From positions 2,546,501-2,610,500 of the forward strand of contig NZ_WVRN01000001.1 of the NCBI RefSeq assembly GCF_013112245.1: DNA of 64,000 nt. The letters are read 5' to 3'. Below, piece by piece: positions 3,846-24,940 of the stretch. The position numbers and the translations under genes are program-made. Numbering within the stretch: the first letter of the stretch is position 1; each line of letters begins with the position of its first letter. Source of the DNA: Ruegeria sp. HKCCD4315 (GTDB lineage: Bacteria; Pseudomonadota; Alphaproteobacteria; Rhodobacterales; Rhodobacteraceae). Under the pieces are notes generated by a model. It had not been told where the DNA came from and searched no databases. It worked only from the letters and a program-made list of their open reading frames with translations.

Positions 3846-4239
3846 GAACCGGCTGAAGAAGCTTGAAACTGCAAGTTCAACTGACTGTCTTGTTTTGCCA
3901 CCGAAATTCGTTGCCTTTGAAGGTATGGATACGCAATGGGCGATTGTCCCCGGGCTTGACGGCGGGTTTCACAGGGAAGAAGGCGAAAACCTTGGCGAGT
4001 TCTGTCAAAGAGCGTTCAAGGCTTACGCGACTTCCAAGGGTTTAGAAAAATGCCGTTCCAACGAGCTGAGCGACGAGGACCTTCAATTCATAGTCGCGGC
4101 TGACTGCCCGGAATTGGCGCTCAAGCTTTGTTGTGGAAAGGAATTATCGAACGCTGACGTTAAGTCTATTGTCGGAAAGCAAGGGATCGATATGGGGTGC
4201 GACGCGCCGAACTCGTACCCCCTCTTTGAAAATCGTTAA
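3835..4239 (+). CDS. Small element protein, second of two with a shared N-terminus
   Basis: A 134-residue protein starting MTIKNRLKKLETASS, clearly sister to the preceding protein at its N-terminus but different afterwards. The middle is acidic (DEDLQFIVAADCPELALKLC) and contains six Cys overall. No catalytic motif is recognised. It starts inside the end of the previous gene, so the two are co-translated. The shared head suggests a common partner or localisation signal attached to different bodies. Confidence 0.6.
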   Translation: MTIKNRLKKLETASSTDCLVLPPKFVAFEGMDTQWAIVPGLDGGFHREEGENLGEFCQRAFKAYATSKGLEKCRSNELSDEDLQFIVAADCPELALKLCCGKELSNADVKSIVGKQGIDMGCDAPNSYPLFENR

Positions 4240-4350
4240 GCTGACTGTTTCAGAGGCTTTTCGTTTTCTCCGACGGGTAAGGACTTGAGGCATTCAACTG
4301 TCCGATGATACGTGTGAGCCAATTTCGCTGGTTTTAAGCAGGAAAAAAGC

Positions 4351-5112
4351 ATGCAGGACATTATTTGGACGGAAAGCAATCGGTGTCATGTAGGTGGAGT
4401 CGACTTTTTTGCGACCGTTAGGGCAAACGAATATCACTCAACGACTTCAAGCAACCAAGAGTTTCTTATTGTAAAAACTCGGGAAATGATTGAAGCGGAG
4501 CTTAAAATAACGGCGAGCTTAAACGTGCGGAATATTGTTGATATTGGCATCTGGCAAGGAGGTAGTGTCGCCCTGTTTGATTGCATCTTTCAACCCGAAA
4601 AGCTAGTAGCCATTGAGTACGCAACCCGCGATCTCCCAACGCTTGACGAATATATCGTGCAGCATGCGCGCGGCGACAATGTTCGTCTGTTCAACGGAGT
4701 TGACCAAGGGAATGCAGGACGGCTCAACGAAATTCTTGATACCGAGTTCGGAACTGAGAGGATTGATCTCGTAGTTGATGATGCGTCTCATCAATACGTG
4801 CAAACCACGTCCTCGTTTAATGTTCTCTTTCCTCGCTTGTCTGACGGCGGAGTTTTTGTAATCGAAGATTGGGGGTGGTCGACAAAGGACTACCACTACA
4901 ATTCAGATTATTTCGCCCACAAGCCTGGGCTTGCAAATCTGGTAATGCAATGCGTGATCGGTTGCACGTGCCGACCCGACATTATTCGCGAAGTCGTCGT
5001 AAACAAGGACTCTGTATTCATTATACGCGGTGAAACAGAACTGCATCACGGCGATTTCGACATCTCCAATATTGCACGCAACAAAGGGGAACAAATCCCT
5101 TTGGTCCTTTAG
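4351..5112 (+). CDS. Class I SAM-dependent methyltransferase-like protein (CmcI/TylF type), copy 1
   Basis: A 253-residue protein with a Rossmann methyltransferase layout. Residues 61-73 (NIVDIGIWQGGSV) are motif I for SAM; VAIEY (86-90) holds the acidic residue after strand 2; VVDDASHQYV (141-150) and VFVIEDWGW (168-176) match the later strands, as in macrocin O-methyltransferase and cephalosporin hydroxylase relatives. The start has AGGA in AGCAGGAAAAAAGC before ATG 4351. A second copy with about 60% identity by eye follows 0.5 kb downstream. Codon use is more AT-rich than the chromosomal genes, as expected for acquired cargo. Substrate unknown; small-molecule or glycan O-methylation are the usual jobs of the family. 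Confidence 0.8.
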   Translation: MQDIIWTESNRCHVGGVDFFATVRANEYHSTTSSNQEFLIVKTREMIEAELKITASLNVRNIVDIGIWQGGSVALFDCIFQPEKLVAIEYATRDLPTLDEYIVQHARGDNVRLFNGVDQGNAGRLNEILDTEFGTERIDLVVDDASHQYVQTTSSFNVLFPRLSDGGVFVIEDWGWSTKDYHYNSDYFAHKPGLANLVMQCVIGCTCRPDIIREVVVNKDSVFIIRGETELHHGDFDISNIARNKGEQIPLVL

Positions 5113-5232
5113 AGCTTTGGTTGGCAACGGTCAATTAACTAGGCATCTATTGCCGGACTGACTTCTGCACCTACCGGGTAGATTTAGGGTATTGAGCAAC
5201 TGAGGATTTCTGTTTGATCGAAGCCATTATGA

Positions 5233-5394
5233 CGCGAGAGTGGAAACCGAATTCAAAGCATCACTTCAAGGCGGATGATCTCGGGTCTGGTTTTGAAATA
5301 TTTGAAAGAGGCAGGATTGGTCATCCTTAAACGCTACGAAACCGCCCTGCCCCGCTCAAGCAAAGTTCTTCTGACAAGACCAGCCAAAATATAG
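5233..5394 (+). pseudogene. Remnant of a prim-pol-like winged-helix C-terminus
   Basis: Between the two methyltransferase genes an open frame without a good start runs from the stop at 5230-5232 to TAG 5392-5394. It encodes SRRMISGLVLKYLKEAGLV followed by a basic stretch with PRSSK and LLTRP. The pattern resembles the C-terminus of the prim-pol protein here (GRRRFSAAVQTLRSAGLL, then HPRSYQLTRSRP). Bases 5257-5380 also match 35296-35417 at roughly three quarters of positions. It is best read as a leftover of another element gene. The rest of the 503-base gap 5113-5615 holds nothing I can identify. Confidence 0.5.
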
Positions 5395-5615
5395 AGCCTG
5401 CGAGATGTCTCAATGCTCCCATCGTGCAAGTCGGACACCTGCTGCAACCTGACTATTAGTTCATTTGAGCGACTAGTTATTCACAGGAGATTAATCCCAC
5501 TCCGAAGGCTGCACTACACTATCTAAAGCACTCTATTTATTTGCAAAATAAGGAGACTTGCAAGAGTCCAGCATTCGCGCGTAGTAACGAGAAAGTCATC
5601 AAATAAGGGCATTGT

Positions 5616-6449
5616 GTGGTGAGCACGTTTAAAGAAACTACCTCAGCTGTATTGCGTTCTCTGTTAGGTGGGTCGTCAAAACAAAAAATCCAACCAATTG
5701 TTTGGACTTCGACGAACCGGTGTCGCGTTGGAGACGTCAAGTTTTTTGCTACTGTCAACAGCGACGAGTATCACTCGATCACTTCAAACGAAAACGAGCT
5801 GCTTATTGTAAAAAACCGAGAAATGATTGAAGCGGAGCTTGAGTGGACTTCGAAACTTGAAGTTCAAAACATCGTTGATATTGGAGTGTGGCAGGGGGGT
5901 AGCGTTGCTCTTCTCGATAGCGTGTTTCGGCCCAAGAAACTGTTAGCAATAGAGTATTCGACCCGAGAGTTGCCGCATCTTGATGCATATGTCGAAGAGC
6001 AATCTCGACAAGAAAATGTGCGAGTTTACAAAGGAGTGAACCAGGCTGACCTTAGCCGGTTTACTGAATTGCTGGATTTTGAGTTCGGAAACGAAAAAAT
6101 CGATCTCGCTATCGACGACGCCTCGCATCACTATCTAGAAACGTTGTTGTCATTCAATCTTGTTTTCCCGCGTATGTCTGAAGGCGGAGTATTTGTTATC
6201 GAAGACTGGCAATGGTCTACAATGGAGGAGTACTACGAGTCCGATTACTTCAAGGACAAAGAGGGATTGGCGAATTTGGTGCTTCAATGTGTCATTGCCT
6301 GTGCCTGCAGACCTGATGTTGTTCGAGAAGTCATCGTCAAGAACCATTCCGTATTGGTTGTGCGGGGCGAGGCAGAGCTCGAAAGAGGAACTTTTGATAT
6401 AACCGATATTGCGCGTAACAAGGGTGAGAATGTTCCTCTTGTTCTTTAA
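5616..6449 (+). CDS. Class I SAM-dependent methyltransferase-like protein (CmcI/TylF type), copy 2
   Basis: A 277-residue sister of the gene at 4351. It has about 24 extra N-terminal residues (MVSTFKETTSAVLRSLLGG...), then the same chain: NIVDIGVWQGGSV at 85-97 for SAM binding, an LAIEY strand, AIDDASHHYL, VFVIEDWQW, and the same C-terminal RNKGE-PLVL end. The start is GTG 5616 followed by a second GTG. All SAM-site residues are kept in both copies, so both are likely active, yet the pair has diverged to about 60% identity, pointing to old duplication or separate acquisition and to different substrates. Confidence 0.8.
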   Translation: MVSTFKETTSAVLRSLLGGSSKQKIQPIVWTSTNRCRVGDVKFFATVNSDEYHSITSNENELLIVKNREMIEAELEWTSKLEVQNIVDIGVWQGGSVALLDSVFRPKKLLAIEYSTRELPHLDAYVEEQSRQENVRVYKGVNQADLSRFTELLDFEFGNEKIDLAIDDASHHYLETLLSFNLVFPRMSEGGVFVIEDWQWSTMEEYYESDYFKDKEGLANLVLQCVIACACRPDVVREVIVKNHSVLVVRGEAELERGTFDITDIARNKGENVPLVL

Positions 6450-6777
6450 CTTCAAGTTGTGTTGCGGTTAACTGCTCTACCTTCAACAAAGTAGAAGCAT
6501 TGCCTACAGGCTATCAATGCACATGCTTGATTCCGATGAACGTGAACCAAAATGTGAAGTGTCGAAGTACCGAATTGCTTAAATTGGTCAATGGTAGGGA
6601 ACGCTATCTTGGGTTCTAATCCATTCGGCGTATGGCTTCGATCTCTTTCTCACCACGCGATTCGATTTCCGCGCCAAATGCAGAAATTCACGCACTTTGT
6701 CCCCTATTTGTCCCCCAGCGTGAAAAAGCGATACGAGACAAATGGTGTAACGTTAGTGTAAACCATTGATTTTTAAA
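6450..6777. other. Gene-free border of the element next to tRNA-Thr
   Basis: These 328 bases hold no credible gene on either strand. They separate the second methyltransferase gene from the 3' end of tRNA-Thr(UGU). This is where an attachment-site junction is expected if the element integrated into the tRNA gene. No second copy of the tRNA 3' end is visible within the window. Confidence 0.5.
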
Positions 6778-6853
6778 TGGTGCCCCCACACGGACTTGAA
6801 CCGCGGACCTACTGATTACAAATCAGTTGCTCTACCAGCTGAGCTATAGGGGC
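6778..6853 (-). tRNA. tRNA-Thr (anticodon UGU)
   Basis: On the minus strand the 76 bases fold as a tRNA: acceptor arms GCCCCTA / TGGGGGC, D arm with AGCTCAGCTGGTAGAGC, anticodon stem-loop with loop TTTGTAA (anticodon TGT), TTCAAGTC T-loop, and an encoded CCA. The 3' end faces the integrase-bearing element, the usual geometry for integration into a tRNA gene. Confidence 0.97.
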
Positions 6854-14186: not shown

Positions 14187-16376
14187 ATGGATCGCGCAGC
14201 CATTGTGCACGAAAACTTCCTGCGTCGCGTGGCGGCGCAGGATTTCCCCGCAGGTAACGCCCCTGCTGGCCCTTTGACCCAGACCGAAGCCGTGGGGCTG
14301 TATCGTGCACAATGCCTCAGCCGAGCGCTGGATCGGCAAAGCCGCGCGATGCAGAAAGCCGGTCAGGGGTTTTACACGATCGGCTCTTCCGGGCACGAAG
14401 GCATGGCGGCTGTTGCCGCCGCCTTGCGTCCGACCGATCCGGCCTTTCTGCATTATCGCGATGCTGCCTTTCAGATCGCCCGCTCTGATCAGGTGCCGGG
14501 GCAAAGCCCAACCTGGGATATTCTGCTGTCCTTCGCCTCATCCTCTGAAGATCCGATCAGCGGCGGGCGGCACAAGGTACTGGGGTCCAAGGCGTTGAGC
14601 ATCCCTCCGCAGACCTCAACCATTGCCAGCCACCTGCCCAAAGCGGTGGGCGCGGCTTATGCTATTGGCGCGGCCCGCCGCCATCGCCCCGAACATGCTG
14701 ACATGCCGGATGATGCGATTGTCTATTGTTCCTTTGGCGATGCCTCGGCCAACCATTCAACCGCGCAAGGGGCATTCAACACTGCGCAATGGACGTCGTT
14801 CCAGTCGGTGCCGCTGCCTCTGCTGTTTTGCTGTGAAGACAATGGCATCGGTATTTCGACCAAGACGCCTCAGGGCTGGATCGCGGCAACCTTCCAGAAT
14901 CGGCCGGGACTGAAATACTTCAGTTGCAACGGGCTTGATCTGTTCGACACATTCCGCGTCGCGCAAGAGGCGGCCGACTATGTGCGCCGCCGTCGCAAAC
15001 CCGCCTTCCTTCATGTGCGCACTGTGCGTCTTTACGGTCATGCCGGGGCAGATATGCCAACAACCTATTTGCCGAAGTCAGAAGTTGAGGCAGAGGAGGC
15101 CAACGATCCCCTGCTGCATTCCGTCCGCCTGCTGGAACAATCCGGAGCGATGCAGTCCGAGGACGCCTTGCGCGTCTATACCGATACTTGCGCGCGCGTC
15201 GCCCGTGTCGCAGACAAAGCCGTCACCCGTCCGCGTCTGAAAACAGCAAGCGACGTTATGGCCAGCCTGATACCACCCGTACGCCCCTGTGCGCCGACCA
15301 ATGGCCCAAGCCCAGAACAAAGAGCCGAGGTGTTCGGCAGCGATCTCAAGGCGCAATCTGAACCTCAGATCATGTCGCGCCTGATCAACTGGACCCTGAC
15401 CGATCTGATGCTGGAACACGGCGAGGTCGTGATGATGGGAGAAGATGTCGGGCGCAAGGGCGGTGTCTATGGTGTGACGCAAAAACTGCAGGCACGTTTC
15501 GGCCCCGACCGGATGATCGACACTTTGCTGGACGAACAATCGATCCTGGGTCTGGCCATCGGTATGGCGCAAAATGGCTTTGTTCCGATGCCGGAAATCC
15601 AGTTTCTGGCCTATCTGCACAACGCCGAAGACCAATTGCGTGGCGAGGCGGCCACCCTGCCCTTCTTCTCGAACGGTCAATACACCAACCCGATGGTCGT
15701 GCGTATTGCCGGGCTGGGATACCAGAAAGGCTTTGGCGGGCATTTCCACAACGATAACTCAGTTGCCGTTTTGCGCGACATTCCGGGCCTGATTCTGGCC
15801 TGCCCGTCGAACGGCGCGGATGCCGCGCGGATGCTACGGGAATGTGTCCGTCTGGTGCGCGAAGAACAGCGGCTCGTTGTCTTCCTTGAGCCCATCGCGC
15901 TCTATCCGATGCGCGATCTGCATGAAACGGGCGATGGTGGGTGGATGCAAACCTATCCCGACCCTTCCGAGCGCATCGAGTTAGGGGAGGTCGGCGTAGA
16001 AGGTGGCGGGGACGATCTGGCCATCGTGACTTTTGGCAATGGCGTCTATCTCAGCCACCAAGCGCAAAAGGCGTTGCAGGCGGACGGTATCAACCCCCGG
16101 ATCGTTGACCTGAGGTGGCTGTCGCCCTTGCCAAAAGATGCGCTGACCCAAGCGGTCGCCGGGGCCAAACGTATTCTGATCGTTGACGAAACCCGCCATC
16201 ATGGCGGTGTGGCCGAGGCCCTGATGGCCCATTTCCACGAAACGGCAACTGTGCCACTGGCCCGCATCACGGCCGAAGACAGCTTCATCGCAACCGGCCC
16301 GGCCTATGCCGCCACAATGCCGTCCAAAGACAGCATCGAGGCCGCGGCGCGGCGCCTGATGGAGACCGAGGTATGA
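14187..16376 (+). CDS. Fused 2-oxoacid dehydrogenase E1 (alpha-beta), probable 2-oxoadipate dehydrogenase
   Basis: A 729-residue thiamine-diphosphate enzyme in which the E1 alpha half (about 1-350) and E1 beta half (about 385-729) are one chain. The alpha half has GFYTIGSSGHEG, the ThDP/Mg motif starting GDASAN (184-189) and EDNG (217-220). The beta half has VVMMGEDVGRKGGVYGVT, the ThDP-activating Glu in PEIQF, and VDLRWLSPLPKD. Fused branched-chain-type E1 proteins usually decarboxylate 2-oxoacids onto lipoyl E2. In this operon, between glutaryl-CoA dehydrogenase and an acyltransferase, the natural substrate is 2-oxoadipate. No E2 or E3 gene lies nearby, so these must come from elsewhere. 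Its stop overlaps the next start (ATGA). Confidence 0.85.
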   Translation: MDRAAIVHENFLRRVAAQDFPAGNAPAGPLTQTEAVGLYRAQCLSRALDRQSRAMQKAGQGFYTIGSSGHEGMAAVAAALRPTDPAFLHYRDAAFQIARSDQVPGQSPTWDILLSFASSSEDPISGGRHKVLGSKALSIPPQTSTIASHLPKAVGAAYAIGAARRHRPEHADMPDDAIVYCSFGDASANHSTAQGAFNTAQWTSFQSVPLPLLFCCEDNGIGISTKTPQGWIAATFQNRPGLKYFSCNGLDLFDTFRVAQEAADYVRRRRKPAFLHVRTVRLYGHAGADMPTTYLPKSEVEAEEANDPLLHSVRLLEQSGAMQSEDALRVYTDTCARVARVADKAVTRPRLKTASDVMASLIPPVRPCAPTNGPSPEQRAEVFGSDLKAQSEPQIMSRLINWTLTDLMLEHGEVVMMGEDVGRKGGVYGVTQKLQARFGPDRMIDTLLDEQSILGLAIGMAQNGFVPMPEIQFLAYLHNAEDQLRGEAATLPFFSNGQYTNPMVVRIAGLGYQKGFGGHFHNDNSVAVLRDIPGLILACPSNGADAARMLRECVRLVREEQRLVVFLEPIALYPMRDLHETGDGGWMQTYPDPSERIELGEVGVEGGGDDLAIVTFGNGVYLSHQAQKALQADGINPRIVDLRWLSPLPKDALTQAVAGAKRILIVDETRHHGGVAEALMAHFHETATVPLARITAEDSFIATGPAYAATMPSKDSIEAAARRLMETEV

Positions 16377-17410
16377 TCCAAGAAAAACAGACCGCCGTTG
16401 TCATCTGCCCTGGGAGGGGTACGTATAACAAACCCGAACTGGGAGTGCTGGGGCGGCAGTTTTCGGATAACGCGTTGCTGGCGCGGTTCGACCAGATGCG
16501 TAGCGCACAGGGGCAAGAAACCCTGACCGAGTTGGACGGTACGGCGCGATATTCTGTCGTGAAACATACCCGTGGCGACAACGCCTCGGCCCTGATCTAT
16601 GCCGCTACACTGGGCGATTTCCGTGCCATCAACCGCAACAAGATCGACGTGGTGGCGGTGACAGGGAATTCAATGGGCTGGTATTCGGCCCTGGCCTGCG
16701 CGGGTGCGCTGAGCGCCGAAGGTGGGTTCGAGGTCGTCAACACAATGGGCACGCTGATGCAGGGCAACATGATCGGCGGGCAACTGGTTTATCCATTCCT
16801 GAACGCGGATTGGCACCCAGATCCAGCCCGCAAGGCCAAGCTTTTGGCTCTGGTCGATCAGATCAACGGAACGGGCGCGATGCTGACTCTGTCAATTGAT
16901 CTGGGTGGAATGCTTGTGCTGGCCGGGGATGAGGCCGGGCTGGCCGCGTTCGAAAAAGCCGTACCGGTGGTACAGGACCGCTTCCCCCTGCGCCTTGCCA
17001 ATCACGCGGGCTTTCATTCACACCTTCAAGCCCCCGTGGCCGCACAGGGTCGCGCGCAGTTGGGCGCAGATCTTTTCCAACAGCCCAGTCTGCCAATGAT
17101 CGACGGTCGAGGCCAGATTTGGTGGCCGGAGGCTTGCGACACCAACGCTTTGTGGGAGTATACGCTGGGTCATCAGGTCACGGAGACCTACAACTTCACC
17201 CACGCAATAGCGCAGGCCGCACGTGAGTTCGCGCCTGACCTGTTTATTGTCACTGGTCCGGGCACCACGCTGGGCGGTGCCGTGGCACAATCCCTGATCC
17301 TCAGCAACTGGGACGGGCTGAGCGATAAGGCATCTTTCCAGAACAGGCAGCGCGAAGAACCACTGCTGGTTTCAATGGGTATGGATGATCAAAGGGCATT
17401 GGTCACTTAA
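16373..17410 (+). CDS. FabD-like acyltransferase of the lysine operon
   Basis: A 345-residue protein with the malonyl-CoA:ACP transacylase fold. The nucleophile motif is GNSMG with Ser100 where FabD has GHSLG, and the catalytic His is His215 in GFHSHL. The Arg that binds the malonyl carboxylate in FabD (in RG-LMQ) is replaced by Met125 (TMGTLMQ). The active dyad is therefore kept but malonyl selectivity probably is not. The ATGA overlap with the E1 gene ties it to the 2-oxoacid dehydrogenase step; a role in handling glutaryl or another acyl group is inferred. A plain fatty-acid-synthesis FabD is unlikely in this setting. Confidence 0.75.
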   Translation: MIQEKQTAVVICPGRGTYNKPELGVLGRQFSDNALLARFDQMRSAQGQETLTELDGTARYSVVKHTRGDNASALIYAATLGDFRAINRNKIDVVAVTGNSMGWYSALACAGALSAEGGFEVVNTMGTLMQGNMIGGQLVYPFLNADWHPDPARKAKLLALVDQINGTGAMLTLSIDLGGMLVLAGDEAGLAAFEKAVPVVQDRFPLRLANHAGFHSHLQAPVAAQGRAQLGADLFQQPSLPMIDGRGQIWWPEACDTNALWEYTLGHQVTETYNFTHAIAQAAREFAPDLFIVTGPGTTLGGAVAQSLILSNWDGLSDKASFQNRQREEPLLVSMGMDDQRALVT

Positions 17411-17458
17411 CCTGACGCCCGATCTCAAACGGGGCCAATAGCCGAGAGATTTCGCTGG

Positions 17459-18202
17459 TTAGAGGCTGACAAGTTTGTGCTGCCCGTCAGCGCCCAGGAA
17501 ACTTGTTTGACCAGACCCGAAAGCCGCTTGAAAAGCCTTGTCCGTCTTGGCCCATTCCAAAAGTGCTTTGGCTTCTTTCAACGCATCCGGCCCCGTTGGT
17601 GCAGCAGCAATCGCCGCGAGGATTTGCCGAAGTTTCGAGTTCTTGTCTGCGACGCTTGAACCAACCTCAAGTACAAGGCCAACGACCGATGGCGGGGTAT
17701 ACACATAGTCCGCATCGGATTGCGCCGCGATACGGGCCTGCAGGGCCGGAACGATGTCGACTGTGTCATGGACATAGGTCCAACTGGTAGACAGCCCCTC
17801 GATCATGGGGTTGTCGGTCCCGGCCAGCATTGTGATCGGTGTGGTTTTGTAGATCACGATTGGTTTTCCAGCCGCATAGGCAATAGAGGATTCAACAAGA
17901 CTGCCCCCGTCAGGCACACGCCCATCCATGTTAAAAACCAGACATGTGCACCGACCGATTAACTGATAAATATCCAGCGAATAAGTGACTTTGCGCACGA
18001 TCGAGAGCGCGATTTGTCCTTCCTGCGAAGAAATCTGGGGGTCAAGAAGCAGCGCCATTAACTTGCCCACTTCAAGCCCGTCACGCTGCGGTAAATAGGT
18101 TGTGAACCCCCCGGCCTCTAGCACGGCGGCAATGTTCTGCTGCTCCCAAAGATCCCCGACGCTGAACATCGGCCCCGAGCAATACACGATCTGTTCTGAC
18201 AT
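17459..18202 (-). CDS. Nucleoside 2-deoxyribosyltransferase-like protein with a helical C-terminal extension
   Basis: A 247-residue protein. Residues 6-120 match the nucleoside 2-deoxyribosyltransferase fold: VYCSGPMFS, then FNMDGRVPDGG (substrate Asp93), then SLVESSIAYAAGKPIV with Glu104 as the usual nucleophile. Family enzymes exchange or hydrolyse the N-glycosidic bond of deoxynucleosides. The C-terminal ~75 residues are an unrecognised helical segment, longer than in the plain enzyme. The gene follows the cyclase/AAA/TPR gene by 23 bases on the same strand, so both are likely one unit. Confidence 0.75.
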   Translation of the reverse strand: MSEQIVYCSGPMFSVGDLWEQQNIAAVLEAGGFTTYLPQRDGLEVGKLMALLLDPQISSQEGQIALSIVRKVTYSLDIYQLIGRCTCLVFNMDGRVPDGGSLVESSIAYAAGKPIVIYKTTPITMLAGTDNPMIEGLSTSWTYVHDTVDIVPALQARIAAQSDADYVYTPPSVVGLVLEVGSSVADKNSKLRQILAAIAAAPTGPDALKEAKALLEWAKTDKAFQAAFGSGQTSFLGADGQHKLVSL

Positions 18203-18225
18203 TTGAAAAGCTCCACAAATTGACT

Positions 18226-21200
18226 TCAGGAATTCACAGAAGCGAGGACACGGGATGCCTTTTGCGCATCCACAGTGTCAGTCCCAGGCTCAAGTGCTTT
18301 TAGGACAGTCGCCAATCGATTTCGGGTGGTCCGATCCTCGGACCCAAGCACATCGTCCAATGTCAACAACGCGCGCAATTCCAACGAGCGGGCGTGGTTG
18401 CCGCGTGCCAAGTCCACGGCTTCGGACACGCTTTCAACCGCTGCTGTGCGGTCGCCCATTGTTGCCTGAACCTCTCCCAACAATCGTTTTAGTTCAGCGT
18501 CCCAGAAATGCTGACCCAGCATCGCCGACATCTGGCTGCCCGTTTGCAACACACCCAACGCGATCTCGGGGTTGCCTTGATCTGCCTGCGCGCTGGCCAT
18601 AATGGAAAAACCCAAGCCCACAGCAGATTGGCTGCCGCTGCCCGACAGAATACCAAGCCCCGCTTCTATGTCTTGCAGACGTTTTGCAGGCTGATCGACT
18701 TTTTGACCCGCGCGCAGCAGTAGGCACAACCCTTGCCAAAACGGTATCCCAAGGTTGGCGCAGAACATCACTGTTTCGTCAGCAACCTCGTATGCGAGCT
18801 CCTCATCCCCGCGGTAATGGTGAATAAGCGCCAGATAAGACCGAGCTGCAGCAAGGCTCAGGGCGGATTCAAGCCCCTCGGCAAGAGCGACACCCTGGCG
18901 GGCCCGTCTCAGTCCGGTTTGCGCGTCCCCCAACCACCAATGCGACGCCGCTGCAGCCCCATAGGCCACAACGCCCTGATCGGTTCCAACGCCATACGTT
19001 ACGTTTGCAAAGTCATCAGGTTGATACAGCGAAACCGCTGTTTCGGCATGATCTAGCGCATCTTGCACATCGCCAATTTGGAACTTCGCATTCGCAAGCG
19101 ATGAATGCGCCCGAAGCATACCAATGCGATGGTTGGCAGGTTCTGACCACGACAATATCTGAAGTGCAAAATCGCAGGCTTTGGCGCAATCGCCTTTGCC
19201 AATCCAATATGCGGCCAGACCATTGAGCGCCGATGACCGCTCATCGTAATCCTTCAGCGTTTCCGCAATGCTCAAGGCGCGCTCCCAAACCGGGACGATT
19301 TCATCAGATCCAAATCCGCGCACACCCATCAATGCGTTGCCCAACAGTATCTGCAGCGACAGTTCTGAGTTGTGGCGCTCGGGCGTTTCCGAAGCACCCT
19401 CCAACGCTTCCAGCGCACGTCTGTACAGTGTCGCGGCATCCTCTACCGCAGCCTGCTTCGCGGCACTCCGCCCCGCTTTTTTGAACCATTCAGCGGCTGG
19501 CGTGAATTGTTCGGACGCCAGAAGGTGATAGGCGACGACAGACGGGTTCATGTCACCCTGCCCGCTGAATTGCGTCATCAACTGATCCGCCGTCGCTGCG
19601 TGAAGGGTCTTGCGTCTTTGCCGCAGCAACGTGCCATAAGCGCCGTCGCGTGTCAGAGCATGGCGGAAGAAGTAGCTGCCCGGTTGACCCGCATGACGCC
19701 GGATCAGATCAGCATCCAGCAAAACATCAATTGATGCATCCAAACCTTTGGCATCAAGTTCAGACACCGCCGCAAGCAGCGTCTGATCAAAAGCCTGCCC
19801 CAAAACCGCAGCAACTTGTGCAGTGCCTTTGGCGCTCTTGGGCAAGCGATCAAGCTGTTGCATGACAAGGCCGTCGAGCGACGTAGGAATGAGAGATTGG
19901 TGCCCGACCTCGTCACGCAGCGCTTGCCGCGTCAGTTCTTCCAGAAACAGCGGCACACCCTGCGCCCGCTCAATCAATTGCTGAATGTCTTCGGTGTTCA
20001 GACGCTGCGCAGCGTCAATCGAGCGAATAAGCTGGTGCGCCTCTGAATTTGCAAGTGTCGACAGCTCGATCACGCGACCAATCAGTTTTTTGTCGATACC
20101 GTCTTTGGCGTTCCGCGACGTGACAAGGCACAACAGCTTTGCCGGCGTTTCCCTCTGCAACATCAGATTTAGCAAGTCGATCGTTGTTGCATCGCTCCAA
20201 TGCAGATCCTCGCATACCAAAACAACGGGGCGTTGATTGGACAGAAATTCGATCCAGAGAACCAGTGTTTCCAGCGTCAGTTTGCGCAGGCTTTCAGGGC
20301 TTTCACTGGCCAAAACCGATAACTCTGGCACCCGGAGTCCCAAAAAATTGGCGATGACGGGAAACGCATTTTCCGGCCTTTCATCCCAAGCTGCCAACCC
20401 CTCGTTCAGTCGAAACGCAGCGTCTTCGGTATTCTGTGGGTCGGCTATTCCAAGGCTTTTCAACCCCAACTCGATGAACGGATGCAAAGCCGCGCCGGTT
20501 TGCAAAACATCACATCTCGCCTCTAGCCAGGTATGCGGCGTTTCGGACAGACCAGCCTGAAACGTGTCGATCAACGTGCTCTTGCCCACGCCCGGGTCAG
20601 CCACAAGGCTAACACTGGACCGTGTGCCGCTAAGCACAGCCTCGAATTCTGAGGTCAGCGTGGATAGCTCTTCCTCTCGTCCCACCAGCGTGCTGAGGGG
20701 CCGCGCCACTGATCGCTTCGCTGGCGTGGATTGGCGCAATTGATGAAGAACAACTTCATTCACAAGCCCCTTTAACCGGGCCGGGGGTTGCGGTCGGGAC
20801 GCGAATTTTCCTTTCAGAAGATGCAGTGCAGATTCGCTTGTAAAGATCGTTCCGGGCGATGCGGCTGATTGGATACGGGCAGCAACATTCACCGTTTCGC
20901 CTAATAGGATATCGCCCAAACCGTCGCTGCTTTGCCCCACGATCACAGGCCCGGCGTGGATACCCACGCGCGCTTGTAGTGGCGATTTAAGCCGGGGCTG
21001 GCCAACTTGACCCAATCCTTGCAGCATCTCAAAAGCCGCGCGCACGGCCCGTTCGGCATCGTTTTCCTGCGCCTGTGGATATCCAAAATAGACAAGAAGA
21101 CCATCGCCCAGATAATGGGCAATTTTTCCACCAAATTTCTCGAATGTCCGGCTTCCGAACTTTTGAAACGCCAGCATCAAGTCAGCGAAATCTTCGGAAT

Positions 21201-21315
21201 CCATCCTGGTGCTTAATTCGGTTGAGCCCACAACATCGACAAACGCAAGAACAAGGCGCCGACGCTCACCGCTAAGCCCAGAGTCGTTTTGAGTACCAGC
21301 GGAGGTCTTCGCCAT
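18226..21315 (-). CDS. Class III nucleotide cyclase - AAA ATPase - TPR protein
   Basis: A 1029-residue multidomain protein. Residues 20-155 form a class III cyclase domain with both metal Asp residues (FVDVVGSTEL, Asp27; YLGDGLLVYF, Asp71) and the transition-state Asn143/Arg147 pair (ETVNVAARIQ), so it looks active. An AAA_16-type ATPase follows, with Walker A ADPGVGKST (240-248) and Walker B VVLVCEDLHW (364-373). From about residue 600 to the end there are TPR-like helical repeats. ATG 21315 (MAKTSAG) is chosen because AGGTGAC precedes it; ATG 21333 is possible. Such proteins are thought to couple sensing by the ATPase/TPR part to cNMP production. Confidence 0.9.
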   Translation of the reverse strand: MAKTSAGTQNDSGLSGERRRLVLAFVDVVGSTELSTRMDSEDFADLMLAFQKFGSRTFEKFGGKIAHYLGDGLLVYFGYPQAQENDAERAVRAAFEMLQGLGQVGQPRLKSPLQARVGIHAGPVIVGQSSDGLGDILLGETVNVAARIQSAASPGTIFTSESALHLLKGKFASRPQPPARLKGLVNEVVLHQLRQSTPAKRSVARPLSTLVGREEELSTLTSEFEAVLSGTRSSVSLVADPGVGKSTLIDTFQAGLSETPHTWLEARCDVLQTGAALHPFIELGLKSLGIADPQNTEDAAFRLNEGLAAWDERPENAFPVIANFLGLRVPELSVLASESPESLRKLTLETLVLWIEFLSNQRPVVLVCEDLHWSDATTIDLLNLMLQRETPAKLLCLVTSRNAKDGIDKKLIGRVIELSTLANSEAHQLIRSIDAAQRLNTEDIQQLIERAQGVPLFLEELTRQALRDEVGHQSLIPTSLDGLVMQQLDRLPKSAKGTAQVAAVLGQAFDQTLLAAVSELDAKGLDASIDVLLDADLIRRHAGQPGSYFFRHALTRDGAYGTLLRQRRKTLHAATADQLMTQFSGQGDMNPSVVAYHLLASEQFTPAAEWFKKAGRSAAKQAAVEDAATLYRRALEALEGASETPERHNSELSLQILLGNALMGVRGFGSDEIVPVWERALSIAETLKDYDERSSALNGLAAYWIGKGDCAKACDFALQILSWSEPANHRIGMLRAHSSLANAKFQIGDVQDALDHAETAVSLYQPDDFANVTYGVGTDQGVVAYGAAAASHWWLGDAQTGLRRARQGVALAEGLESALSLAAARSYLALIHHYRGDEELAYEVADETVMFCANLGIPFWQGLCLLLRAGQKVDQPAKRLQDIEAGLGILSGSGSQSAVGLGFSIMASAQADQGNPEIALGVLQTGSQMSAMLGQHFWDAELKRLLGEVQATMGDRTAAVESVSEAVDLARGNHARSLELRALLTLDDVLGSEDRTTRNRLATVLKALEPGTDTVDAQKASRVLASVNS

Positions 21316-21495
21316 AAAGTCACCTGCGCGCAAAAATGAAAAAACATTCTGGTCAAAATCCAGCTATTGTTCAAACAAACACGCAAAGGTGTCGCGCGGT
21401 CAAGTTTTGTGATAAGTCAACGGAATAGTCAGACTTCGTGTCAAAACATCGATGCGACGCAATAAATCGTAGTTTAAACATGTTTTGGGTGGATT

Positions 21496-22917
21496 ATGGG
21501 CGACATCAGATATGTCTGTCTTTCAGATATGCATTTTGGGGCGGATAACAGCATTTTGACGCGCCTGAACGCGACGGACGGCAGTGTTGATCCGATGCAC
21601 CCCAGCGATGTTCTGATACACTTGGCGAACTGCCTGAGGCACCTCATAAACGACAATTCAGGTGATCGCCTGCCGACGCTCATTTTGAACGGGGATATTC
21701 TCGATCTGGCCTTCAGTATGGAAAACGTGGCTGCGATGGCCTTTCGCCACTTTCTTGAGTTGACCATGCCGGATGATCCCGCCGCCCGGCTTTTCGATTC
21801 CGAGATTGTGTTCATCCCCGGCAATCATGACCATCATCTTTGGGAAACCTGCCGAGAGCGACAATATGCGGATTGTCTGAGCTCAGCCGATTGGAGCACC
21901 CCCCTGCCCCGCCCACCGCACATCACTCCGATGCGCGAACCCGACGGTGTTCCCAGCTATTTTGTCAATGCAATCGCACACAGTCTTCCCTGGCTTGCAG
22001 ACGTCAAGATCAAAACCGTTTATCCCAATTACGCCATCACATCCGGTGACAAGCTTATTGTGGTCAGCCACGGGCACTTTATCGAAGAGGCATATCTGAT
22101 GGTCAGCGAGTTTGCGGACCTCCTCTACCCGAAAACAACACCGCCTGAGACAATGGAAGCCTGGGAAGCTCAGAACTTTGCCTGGATTGACTTTGTCTGG
22201 TCCGTTCTTGGCCGTTCCGGCCACATCGGTGTCGATGAGGAAAACGTTTACAACACTGAAAACAGCCCCAAGGCGATTGGATCACTGCTGGGCAGTGCGG
22301 CCCGAAATCTGGTTCTGAAAAAGGGCGGAGCGACCGGGAAAACACTTGCCAAGGGCGTCGGCGAAATGGTTGGCGCGTTGGTCGCTGACTATTTTGAACG
22401 CGGGCAGACTGACACGTTGCTCAGCGACGATGGCGCAGGCGTCAAGCGGTTCATGCAGGTTCCGGTTCAAGAACAAATCAGATCGGAATTTGGCGAGACA
22501 GCTCCGTCAAACGTGGCACTTGTTTTTGGGCACACTCACAAGCCTTTTGAAGCAATCATGCCGTTGGAGCATTTCTTTGCCCCAAGTTTCGCCGCCTACA
22601 ACAGCGGTGGATGGGTCGTGGACAGCCCTGAGGTCAAACCGCTCATCGGAGGCGCGATCGTGTTGATCGACGACGACGCCAACCTTGCCTCGCTGCGTAT
22701 GTATAACGAGTGTGATGACACCTCGGACTATCGCGTTTCGGTCCAAATCGCCGAGACGACGGACGACGCAGACAATCCGCTGTTTTCGCAACTGTCCAAA
22801 TCCATTGACCCCCAGAACTGGCCTTGGTCAGACTTTTCCAAAGCCGCCGCCGTTGCCGTCAAACAGCACAACACACGACTGGCCAGTTTTCTGAAAAACG
22901 CAGGTGATACCAGTTAG
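21496..22917 (+). CDS. Calcineurin-like metallophosphoesterase
   Basis: A 473-residue phosphoesterase with the full two-metal signature: SDMHFG (Asp11, His13), NGDILD (65-70), PGNHDHH (108-114), a VSHGHF motif and VFGHTHKP near residue 343. A long insertion lies between the last two motifs and a C-terminal tail of about 110 residues follows. It is divergent from the cyclase gene with about 180 bases between their starts. Substrate is unknown; cyclic nucleotides, nucleotides or UDP-sugars are used by relatives. Its position opposite a cyclase makes cNMP or nucleotide turnover attractive, by inference only. Confidence 0.85.
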   Translation: MGDIRYVCLSDMHFGADNSILTRLNATDGSVDPMHPSDVLIHLANCLRHLINDNSGDRLPTLILNGDILDLAFSMENVAAMAFRHFLELTMPDDPAARLFDSEIVFIPGNHDHHLWETCRERQYADCLSSADWSTPLPRPPHITPMREPDGVPSYFVNAIAHSLPWLADVKIKTVYPNYAITSGDKLIVVSHGHFIEEAYLMVSEFADLLYPKTTPPETMEAWEAQNFAWIDFVWSVLGRSGHIGVDEENVYNTENSPKAIGSLLGSAARNLVLKKGGATGKTLAKGVGEMVGALVADYFERGQTDTLLSDDGAGVKRFMQVPVQEQIRSEFGETAPSNVALVFGHTHKPFEAIMPLEHFFAPSFAAYNSGGWVVDSPEVKPLIGGAIVLIDDDANLASLRMYNECDDTSDYRVSVQIAETTDDADNPLFSQLSKSIDPQNWPWSDFSKAAAVAVKQHNTRLASFLKNAGDTS

Positions 22918-23009
22918 CGTCGGCGTGCAGTTGATTGTCGGAACGTCATGAGACTGCTCAGTCTGCGGAAAAGCACCTGCCGACAAGTTTTGCATAGCTG
23001 ATTGCAAAA

Positions 23010-23084
23010 TGGTGCCCGGGGGCGGAATCGAACCACCGACACGAGGATTTTCAATCCACTGCTCTACCCCTGAGCTACCCGGGC
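23010..23084 (-). tRNA. tRNA-Phe (anticodon GAA)
   Basis: Minus-strand 75-base cloverleaf: acceptor arms GCCCGGG / CCCGGGC, D arm GTAGCTCAGGGGTAGAGC, anticodon loop TTGAAAA (GAA), T-loop TTCGATTC, encoded CCA. It lies just downstream of the yacG gene. Confidence 0.97.
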
Positions 23085-23163
23085 ACGGGAACGACATTCG
23101 TCGTTGGGTGGAGGCGTTCTATGACTTGCCACCGGCAGTGTCCAGAGGCTTTTTTACATTTTT

Positions 23164-23346
23164 TCAGTGCGGTCGTTTCGGCATAAGGTCTTGGGCTTCA
23201 GCGTCTGCTTCAAGGTCGTCTTCGCGCTGCGAAGGGACTGCGTAAGAACCGTTCAGCCACTTGGCCAAATCAATGTCTGCGCAGCGTTTTGAGCAGAAAG
23301 GACGGAACTTCTGCACCGTGTCTTCTCCGCAGATCGGGCAGCTCAT
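23164..23346 (-). CDS. yacG: DNA gyrase inhibitor YacG
   Basis: A 60-residue zinc protein of the YacG family: CPIC (Cys3, Cys6) and FCSKRC (Cys18, Cys22) form the single zinc site, followed by the conserved RCADIDLAKWLNGSY segment and an acidic tail. In E. coli it binds GyrB and inhibits gyrase. The gene overlaps the RNase E/G gene by four bases (ATGA) and is the last of a four-gene unit. Confidence 0.92.
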   Translation of the reverse strand: MSCPICGEDTVQKFRPFCSKRCADIDLAKWLNGSYAVPSQREDDLEADAEAQDLMPKRPH

Positions 23347-24365
23347 TTCAGGATCTCCGCCAGCGGCAAACGGCTGCGTTTGCGTTGCAGTTCGAAATGT
23401 CCCAGCGGGGTCCAGCCTGCCAGAATCGTCTCGTCCGGATCCGACTTGAAAGCAGCGCGCAGAGCGGATTCGAAACCACGCCGGTCTTTTTTGGGCATCG
23501 GTGCCAGATCCAGGGTGATCTGCCCTGCCAATCCACGCACGCGCAAGGCGCGGGGCAACAGTTTGGCACAGGCAAAGTTGGCTTTGGTCCCAGCCGCCAA
23601 GGATGTGTCCGCGCCGGTATTCACATCCACTGCAACCAATGCGCGTGTAGGTTCGATATAAAGATATCCGCCACCCGGCAAAGGTTCGGAAACACCATGC
23701 GCAACATCTAACGCGTCCAGCACACCGTGAGTTTCGAAGCCTCCGGCCCGCGTGACAACCTCGGCCGGGTCTGTCCAGTCCCGCCAGGCCAGTATGTGAG
23801 GGCTGTCGCCTTCACTCAGAATCTCTGGTTCGGTGCCATCGTCATTCATCACCTGGTCCGCTTGCGCCAACATGGACGAGATGTCTTCGGCAATGTCATC
23901 CGCATCCGCACCCACGCAGCAGGAGCGAAGGATCAGGCCGTAACGGCTGTCACCCATCTGTTCATGTGCAATTTCCAGCAACTGGTCACGGACTTCTTCA
24001 TCCCTGATGCTGCGCGAAATGTTCAGGCCCGGCGCTTCGGGCGTGACAATGGCATAGCGGCTTTTAAACAGGATACGGTTGCTCACCGGAATGGCTTTGC
24101 CTGGTTCGGCATAACCACTCACCTGCACCAGAAGCATGGTGCCGGGGGCCAACCCTTTGACTTGTCGCAAGAAGGCAGGCCCATCCGGGGTTGTCAGAAA
24201 CATGCCCCCCTGCCCTTTGACCGGGCGGTCGGCACGGGCGCGATAGATCGTACCGGGCGTAGGCGCGTCCGCTGCAATCAGGAAGTCATCAAGCTTGCCG
24301 TCAACCATAAGGGCCGCGGCTTCGCGGTCCTCGATATGGTCCAGAACGATAGTGCGGCCCTTCAT
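23343..24365 (-). CDS. Ribonuclease E/G-family protein (short form)
   Basis: A 340-residue RNase E/G-like protein, much shorter than RNase G (~490 aa). It has an S1-like segment (about 35-110; [20 protein letters not shown]) and the catalytic-core motif VAVDVNTG with the metal-binding Asp, followed by a second acidic site (TLDLAPM). The Zn-link cysteines and the dimer domain of E. coli RNase E/G are not recognisable. Short forms of this type occur next to yacG and maf in Rhodobacterales. It overlaps both neighbours by four bases, so expression is coupled. Its RNA targets are unknown. Confidence 0.85.
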
Positions 24366-24940
24366 GATGCCTCGCGATATAATGGATAGCCGATACCCTG
24401 CAGCAGAGCGGCGGTTTCGGACAGGGGCAGACCGACAATGCCGGTGAACGAGCCCGAAATCCAGGGAATGAACGCGCCTGCGGGGCCTTGAATGGCATAG
24501 GCACCCGCTTTGCCCTGCCAGTCCCCTGTCGCCAGATATGCGTTGATTTCGACATCCGACAGGCGCTTGACCTTCACCTGCGAGACGACGTCACGCTGCA
24601 ATATTCGCTCCCCACGCCGTATCGCGACCGAGGTTATGACCCGGTGACGGCGACCGGACAACGCGTGCAGAAATTCGGCGGCTTGGCCTGCATCTTCGGG
24701 TTTACCCAGAATGCGACGCCCCAAAGCGACGGTGGTGTCTGCGCACAACGTGATGTCATCTCTATCCGCTTGTACCGCCTGCACTTTTTCGCGTGTGATA
24801 CGGCTGCAATAGGGAACCGGAAGCTCGCCTTTCAGCGGTGTTTCGTCGATGTCAGGGGGGCGGATGGCATCGGGCTGCACACCAAGCTGGGACAGCAGGT
24901 CCAGCCGTCTCGGGCTGCCCGATCCTAAAATAAACGCCAT
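24362..24940 (-). CDS. maf: Maf-like nucleoside triphosphate pyrophosphatase
   Basis: A 192-residue Maf protein. Conserved parts are [12 protein letters not shown] (SxSPRR substrate loop, residues 6-17), [16 protein letters not shown] (catalytic Asp), and [15 protein letters not shown] followed by [11 protein letters not shown]. It hydrolyses non-canonical or UTP/dTTP-type nucleotides to the monophosphate and pyrophosphate. The stop overlaps the next start; the infA stop is 11 bases upstream. Confidence 0.92.

Follow-up and report, generated by a model that had tools for sequence, protein, structure and literature searches.

This analysis concerns a block of three genes, here called A, B and C, in a 64,000-nucleotide stretch of DNA from Ruegeria sp. 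HKCCD4315 (contig NZ_WVRN01000001.1, positions 2,546,501 to 2,610,500 of the forward strand); the whole stretch is called the window, and coordinates are counted from its first letter. The three genes form a real, sporadically distributed block of 5.5 kb that is co-inherited across genera, and their products carry recognizable domains whose active sites, judged from sequences and predicted models, appear intact. Tentatively, we read the block as one accessory signalling cassette with A as its output, at a probability of about 0.42. The genes and the gap between the divergent pair are as follows.

17459..18202, minus strand: gene A, open reading frame (ORF) for a nucleoside 2-deoxyribosyltransferase (NDT)-fold protein with a C-terminal helical extension, 247 aa
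18226..21333, minus strand: gene B, class III nucleotide cyclase, AAA_16 NTPase and tetratricopeptide repeat (TPR) protein, 1035 aa counted from TTG (Pfam matches over cut-offs)
21496..22917, plus strand: gene C, calcineurin-like metallophosphoesterase with a large helical insert, 473 aa (ORF and Pfam)
21334..21495, no strand: B/C intergenic region, 162 bp, or 180 bp with the B start at 21315 (read from the sequence)

All three ORFs lie where a first-pass annotation of the DNA had placed them, and the 23-base spacing that it gave for A and B was verified (B stop at 18226, A start at 18202, both reading leftward). Gene C is divergent from B across the 162-base gap. The ratio of nonsynonymous to synonymous substitution (dN/dS) against two same-genus genomes was 0.024 for A, 0.066-0.072 for B and 0.067-0.069 for C; purifying selection acts on all three, which are thus more than chance ORFs. 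Both promoters are only presumed to lie in the B/C gap, because a promoter scan of it scored 3 against a shuffled mean of 2.7, without clear excess. A terminator scan likewise gave no clear excess over shuffled sequence.

The first-pass proposal had been made to depend on conservation of the three genes as a block, and this was borne out. Gene A was found in 3 of 148 related genomes and C in exactly the same three; the block recurs in a genome of another genus (G337), and four database contigs carry all three genes, so co-occurrence is not the rarity that would have spoken against the block. In scans of genome collections (394 family, 385 class and 299 phylum genomes, with the best 4 to 7 candidates per genome scored), full-length A was present in 2 of the 394 family genomes drawn, namely the window genome and G337. 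A, B and C are contiguous in 4/4 genomes with a full-length A, G337 included; G025, G029 and G337 all have the order A-B-C with C divergent. G025 and G029 share the window's left flank, and two Ruegeria loci (L004 and L005) with the same block match the A contigs of G029 and G025, respectively, in length. In G337 the identities of A, B and C are 63, 45 and 60%, and the flanks differ, with ABC transporter and glyoxalase/E1 genes. Weak partial A matches (G154, G281 and G488) and a C match at a contig end (G444) were omitted from the block counts.

Linkage in the protein database was judged by contigs of equal size across the homologue lists, using the best 120 of 182 (A), 2814 (B) and 1731 (C) proteins. 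Within these best 120 entries each, A, B and C fall together on contigs 6832, 7995, 119872 (that of G337) and 375168; A and B on contigs 4594, 4996 and 7070; A and C on contig 198189; and B and C on contigs 18332, 18453 and 164698. All seven A/B coincidences lie within the first 17 rows of both lists, with none elsewhere. The close A relatives form 17 clusters (rows P0001-P0019, aligning over at least 92% of the query at an identity of at least 58%), three of them on contigs shorter than 2 kb. Nine of the remaining 14, on contigs longer than 2 kb, have B or C as a partner, in the window by direct reading and in the other eight by equal size. The block is conserved down to 42-60% protein identity.

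B exceeds the Pfam cut-offs for PF00211 (Guanylate_cyc), PF13191 (AAA_16) and PF13424 (TPR_12), which confirms the earlier description of a cyclase fused to AAA and TPR parts. Its start is probably ATG 21315 rather than TTG 21333, since the database record (P0243) has 1029 aa. The protein contains DPGVGKST and VLVCEDLHWSD, which we take to be Walker-type motifs. Its cyclase domain has the metal-binding pair of Asp residues and the Asn/Arg of VNVAAR, and in this part the claim of an apparently active cyclase stood. At the base-selecting position, where a Lys usually selects adenine, the window has His and its clade His, Asn or Gln, rarely Lys; therefore, the product of B cannot be called as cyclic AMP. 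A substrate call from the cyclase motifs was dropped altogether, as this position varies even between paralogues of the same genome. B probably senses something and makes a cyclic nucleotide.

Besides B, the genome (4.74 Mb) encodes five large proteins whose match to B extends past the cyclase domain, in three cases over nearly the full length. To our knowledge, the roles of class III cyclases fused to AAA/TPR parts are mostly unassigned. Of the 45 cyclases placed in a tree, the 17 nearest to B group in a single clade (support 100/100); it comprises the cyclases most similar to that of the block, several of which, not all, have a shown A or C partner. The PADLOC profiles for PycC match B at 5.6e-14. 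As a control, the five large paralogues of the same genome were searched with the same profiles and 5/5 matched (best E values 3.3e-13 to 1.1e-20), about equally or better, so the match of B is uninformative and was rejected as evidence for Pycsar.

A matches PF05014 (Nuc_deoxyrib_tr) with 33.3 bits against a curated cut-off of 28.8. In the predicted model (pLDDT 88), the NDT fold is matched only over residues 1-161/165, and beyond it come predicted helices at 172-185, 190-199, 204-220 and 222-228 and strands at 232-236 and 242-246; the extra helical domain noticed in the first-pass annotation is thus placed by the model past the NDT fold. Residues E104, N131 and M133 are conserved in 31/31 alignment rows, and the NPM of A (Asn-x-Met motif) aligns with that of a solved NDT, 7o62. 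We take these residues to be the catalytic Glu and the Asn-x-Met of the NDT active site. A reference title in the available text of PMC3710099 names Glu98 of an NDT as the nucleophile. By these residues A appears to keep a complete, intact NDT active site, and it probably cuts nucleosides. No DNA-binding domain was found in A by Pfam, and PF05014 in A and PF00149 in C are the only Pfam matches of these two proteins over the cut-off.

Relatives of A were also sought on mobile elements. Seven plasmid records (28-37% identity) were set aside as short NDT-like alignments only; the one read sits among 7-deazaguanine (queuosine-type) genes. No relative of A was confirmed on viral contigs. A 421-aa relative (P0020) consists by eye of two tandem NDT-like units, with the Glu of the PDxGxxxE motif changed to Lys in the first and kept in the second. 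The more distant relatives include some named Thermoleophilaceae.

C matches PF00149 (Metallophos) with 29.8 bits against a curated cut-off of 21.5. It carries DxH, GD, GNHD, H and GHxH motifs, invariant in the aligned rows, which we take to be the metal-ligand motifs of calcineurin-like phosphoesterases: D67, N110, H111, D112, H192, H346 and H348 are conserved in 28/28 rows, and D11 and H13 in 27/27 (one gap). The description as a two-metal phosphoesterase agrees with the conservation of every metal ligand, and C probably breaks phosphate bonds. Among its structural matches, Foldseek placed SMPDL3B and LpxH first, whereas Z put LpxH, PolD DP1 and Mre11 on top. C shares 13% identity with the LpxH-type phosphoesterases and differs from them by a helical insert (about 130 residues); we noticed no lipid A gene in the loci read. 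The NCBIfam model NF053862, "anti-phage phosphoesterase", was rejected for C at 21.3 bits against a cut-off of 420. No relative of C was confirmed in phage records. One viral contig (L026, 740-2194) has a distant relative (30% identity) just before terminase, portal and major head genes, which could be counter-defence or packaging-linked.

Gene C also occurs in a second kind of locus. Its profile finds 9 of the 394 family genomes: the window, G337, one at a contig end (G444) and six distant ones. In 6/6 of the distant loci (L038-L043), the gene immediately downstream of C encodes a large protein, and a cyclase/AAA protein lies alongside. These cyclase proteins match B at phmmer E values of 1.6e-38 to 1.1e-45 and have cyclase and AAA_16 domains over the cut-off in 6/6 cases; none has a TPR match over the Pfam cut-off. 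The large protein has 1338-1458 aa in five loci; in L041, where the ORF starts inside C, the length is uncertain. Its GMC oxidoreductase domains exceed the cut-off in all six loci, and its alpha/beta-hydrolase match does so in two (L042 and L043) and is weaker in the other four. On a Variovorax megaplasmid (L025, 9893-18167), C and the GMC-type giant are present, and the cyclase is replaced by an adjacent Trans_reg_C protein whose AAA and TPR matches are below threshold. C and the GMC giant are a conserved pair in L038-L043 and L025, the giant having about 1,250-1,460 aa where the ORF is clear. Because the GMC-type giant stands in place of A in the six distant loci, the comparison suggests a cyclase and phosphoesterase core with an exchangeable third enzyme. 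The six GMC-linked cyclases form their own clade (100/100) in the 45-cyclase tree, separated from the B clade by long branches, so the pairing of cyclase and C is either old or has arisen twice.

The block of the window abuts a tRNA gene, given here as context outside the cassette.

23010..23084, minus strand: tRNA-Phe (gaa), anchor of the hotspot (ARAGORN and Rfam)

The end of C is 92 bp from this gene in the window. In 11/11 fetched loci, tRNA-Phe adjoins the same RNase E/G gene (23343-24365 in the window), and the DNA on the cassette side of tRNA-Phe varies among the 11 loci. The proteins scanned there were picked by eye from the loci rather than by a full census. Integrases were confirmed in L057, L058, L059 and L066, a type I restriction-modification system in L058, DNA methyltransferases in L059 and L061, and Vsr in L061; in G029, C and the RNase E/G gene are about 16 kb apart, with an integrase in the intervening DNA. 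In L064, the DNA at tRNA-Phe includes genes found at 28-34 kb in the window, and part of the variation there is therefore rearrangement. Across the genus, the junction of tRNA-Phe and RNase E/G (window 22918-24365; L057-L067) is a site of varying insertions, which in some relatives include defence genes. We noticed no integrase accompanying A-B-C itself. A second exact copy of the tRNA-Phe 3' end (at least 16 bases) was absent from the window; we therefore dropped the idea that a tRNA-Phe recombinase had integrated the block in this genome, and only its position places the block in the hotspot. The block is on a separate contig from the RNase E/G gene in G025 and from tRNA-Phe in G337.

Other mobile features were seen beside the hotspot. 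In the insert that separates C from tRNA-Phe in G029, a gene (L066, 10873-13791) for a TPR protein of 972 aa, which matches TCAD9 weakly (25.5 bits, cut-off 40), lies near one for a ParA-like ATPase. Another mobile element is suggested at the left edge of the window by a Prim-Pol primase gene (1912-2970), a tRNA-Thr and a low-GC stretch (4001-6853) that holds two Methyltransf_24 genes (4351-5112 and 5616-6449).

The block was compared with known systems. Its likeness to Pycsar (PycC with PycTM or PycTIR; available text of PMC11224242) lies in a class III cyclase beside a putative toxic enzyme, with an inferred nucleotide signal. However, B has AAA and TPR parts, the third gene here is a phosphoesterase, and Pfam shows neither a cyclic-nucleotide-binding nor a TIR domain in A and no cyclic-nucleotide-binding domain in C; a Pycsar receptor joins such a binding domain to a transmembrane or TIR part. 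The cyclase-AAA-TPR part of B also aligns along the TIGR03903 TOMM kinase/cyclase family (441.6 bits), but B is below the curated cut-off of 705.75 and is without a kinase domain.

NAD (nicotinamide adenine dinucleotide)-hydrolysing filaments are reportedly the subject of Carabias 2024, according to its title. In the retrons Eco1, Eco9 and Sen2, an NDT-fold enzyme has been proposed or shown as the effector, as far as the available text of PMC8989520 and PMC12887533 goes; the effectors described there have a predicted DNA-binding C-terminus, whereas A has no such Pfam domain. The available text of PMC3710099 adds NDTs fused to an Abi domain. The first-pass remark that such domains have been described as effectors has support in print in all three sources. 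Retron membership was rejected, as the block has neither a reverse transcriptase nor an msr-msd RNA: Pfam found no reverse transcriptase domain in six window proteins in and around the block, the RNase E/G gene included, and no retron RNA reached the Rfam gathering threshold in 16000-24500, where the only hit was the tRNA.

A third comparison is the survey of conflict systems that we take to be that of Kaur et al. 2020. In its available sections (PMC7159879), cyclic nucleotide monophosphate cyclases, DRHyd domains and calcineurin-type phosphodiesterases are interchangeable parts, and the same three domain kinds appear in NTP-dependent systems as signal generators, effectors and signal-cleaving enzymes. 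Those systems differ from A, B and C, in which Pfam finds no vWA or MoxR component, and the three-gene combination is not described in those sections. Literature searches, with subscription papers mostly outside their scope, returned no report joining nucleoside 2-deoxyribosyltransferase, adenylate cyclase and tetratricopeptide, no Pycsar paper with a deoxyribosyltransferase, none combining GMC oxidoreductase, adenylate cyclase and metallophosphoesterase, and none joining three of metallophosphoesterase, adenylate cyclase, antiphage and nucleoside deoxyribosyltransferase.

In the signalling cassette that we propose, B would sense a condition through its AAA/TPR part, and once triggered, its class III cyclase would make a cyclic nucleotide whose base we leave unassigned. 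A, the predicted NDT-fold glycosidase, would be the output enzyme, switched on by this signal or by B itself, and would cleave a nucleoside, nucleotide or NAD-like substrate, leading to a growth stop or an altered nucleotide pool. C would limit or reset the response by hydrolysing the product of B or removing what A makes. We infer the signalling from B to A, the action of C as an off-switch and the purpose in a stress or phage response.

Several observations weigh against this proposal. Pfam finds no cyclic-nucleotide-binding domain in A or C, and the wire from B to A is therefore missing. No cyclic-nucleotide phosphodiesterase is among the structural matches of C listed by name, and in its predicted model C resembles the lipid enzyme LpxH and DNA-processing phosphoesterases. 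Compared with close relatives, the TPR region of B is 94-95% identical and the AAA region 78-81%, so the TPR part is the most conserved region, the reverse of what an arms-race sensor would show. Five of the 14 close A clusters (contigs 3439, 3523, 13243, 29742 and 4309) have no B or C partner by equal size, for which clustering or short contigs may account. The profile of A finds only the window's own genome among 385 class genomes (E≤1e-30) and only G337 itself among 101 relatives of G337 (E≤1e-20), and that of C finds only the window's own among 299 phylum genomes (E≤1e-40). The flanks in G337 are ordinary transporter and metabolic genes, and the position of C next to a GMC oxidoreductase that has a hydrolase-like part would suit lipid or steroid metabolism no less than signalling. 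The first-pass idea of an undescribed signalling or defence module thus survives in part: it is favored by the conserved block, the recurring cyclase-phosphoesterase pair and the hotspot position, and opposed by the lack of a receptor domain, the LpxH likeness of C and the slow evolution of the TPR part. A role in antiviral defence is plausible but unproven, and it is argued from location and domains.

The strongest alternative, possible though doubtful, is a metabolic or regulatory cassette without conflict, in which B would report a metabolite at the expense of ATP, A would salvage deoxynucleosides and C would dephosphorylate an intermediate, all in one accessory pathway. The complete NDT active site of A, with its Asn-x-Met, and the LpxH-like C are consistent with it, as are the metabolic type of the GMC enzyme in the related loci, the DNA-binding Trans_reg_C protein in place of the cyclase in Variovorax, the slowly evolving TPR part, and the metabolic flanks in G337 and on the window's left. 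However, a salvage enzyme needs no cyclase/AAA/TPR partner of 1,000 aa, the sporadic spread of A (3 of 148 genomes; two strong matches in 394) is unlike that of a core pathway gene, and the block of the window abuts a hotspot with restriction-modification in some relatives.

A bolder version of the signalling proposal, which we consider rather unlikely, is an as yet undescribed family of nucleotide-signalling immune cassettes with a constant core of cyclase/AAA protein and LpxH-fold phosphoesterase and an exchangeable NDT glycosidase or GMC/hydrolase giant, in which the phosphoesterase would end the signal and its phage relatives would be counter-defence. It is also unlikely, slightly more so, that B and C are the functional pair (a maker and breaker of a cyclic nucleotide, or a sensor and an effector, with C as the toxic effector), and that A and the GMC protein are passengers or substrate-specific outputs. 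The link of cyclase/AAA protein and C is wider than A (6/6 distant loci; contigs 18332, 18453 and 164698), B and C are divergent in 6 of the 10 loci read, including two of the GMC type, and one phage contig has a C relative beside packaging genes. Yet the two cyclase lineages stand in separate clades on a long stem, which allows for two origins of the pairing; the size match of contig 18332 may be accidental, and contig 164698 is from a Ruegeria whose A may hide inside cluster P0001. That A, B and C are unrelated neighbours kept together in one clade by descent is very improbable: the three same-genus genomes share the left flank and therefore show no functional link alone, but the block recurs in G337 and in metagenome contigs at cyclase identities of 42-63%, and a cyclase lay within 10 kb of C in 10/10 loci read (three of them close relatives, not independent) against an estimated 2-3% per locus, based on six large cyclases, B included, in 4.74 Mb, so co-occurrence largely refutes it.

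In summary, if the reading of A-B-C as a signalling cassette is true, class III cyclases with AAA/TPR sensors, of which this genome has six large ones, would gain partners in the form of a glycosidase output and a dedicated phosphoesterase. The GMC version would then mean that the third component can be swapped, as it can in other defence families. The block is small and self-contained and is therefore suited to direct laboratory testing.

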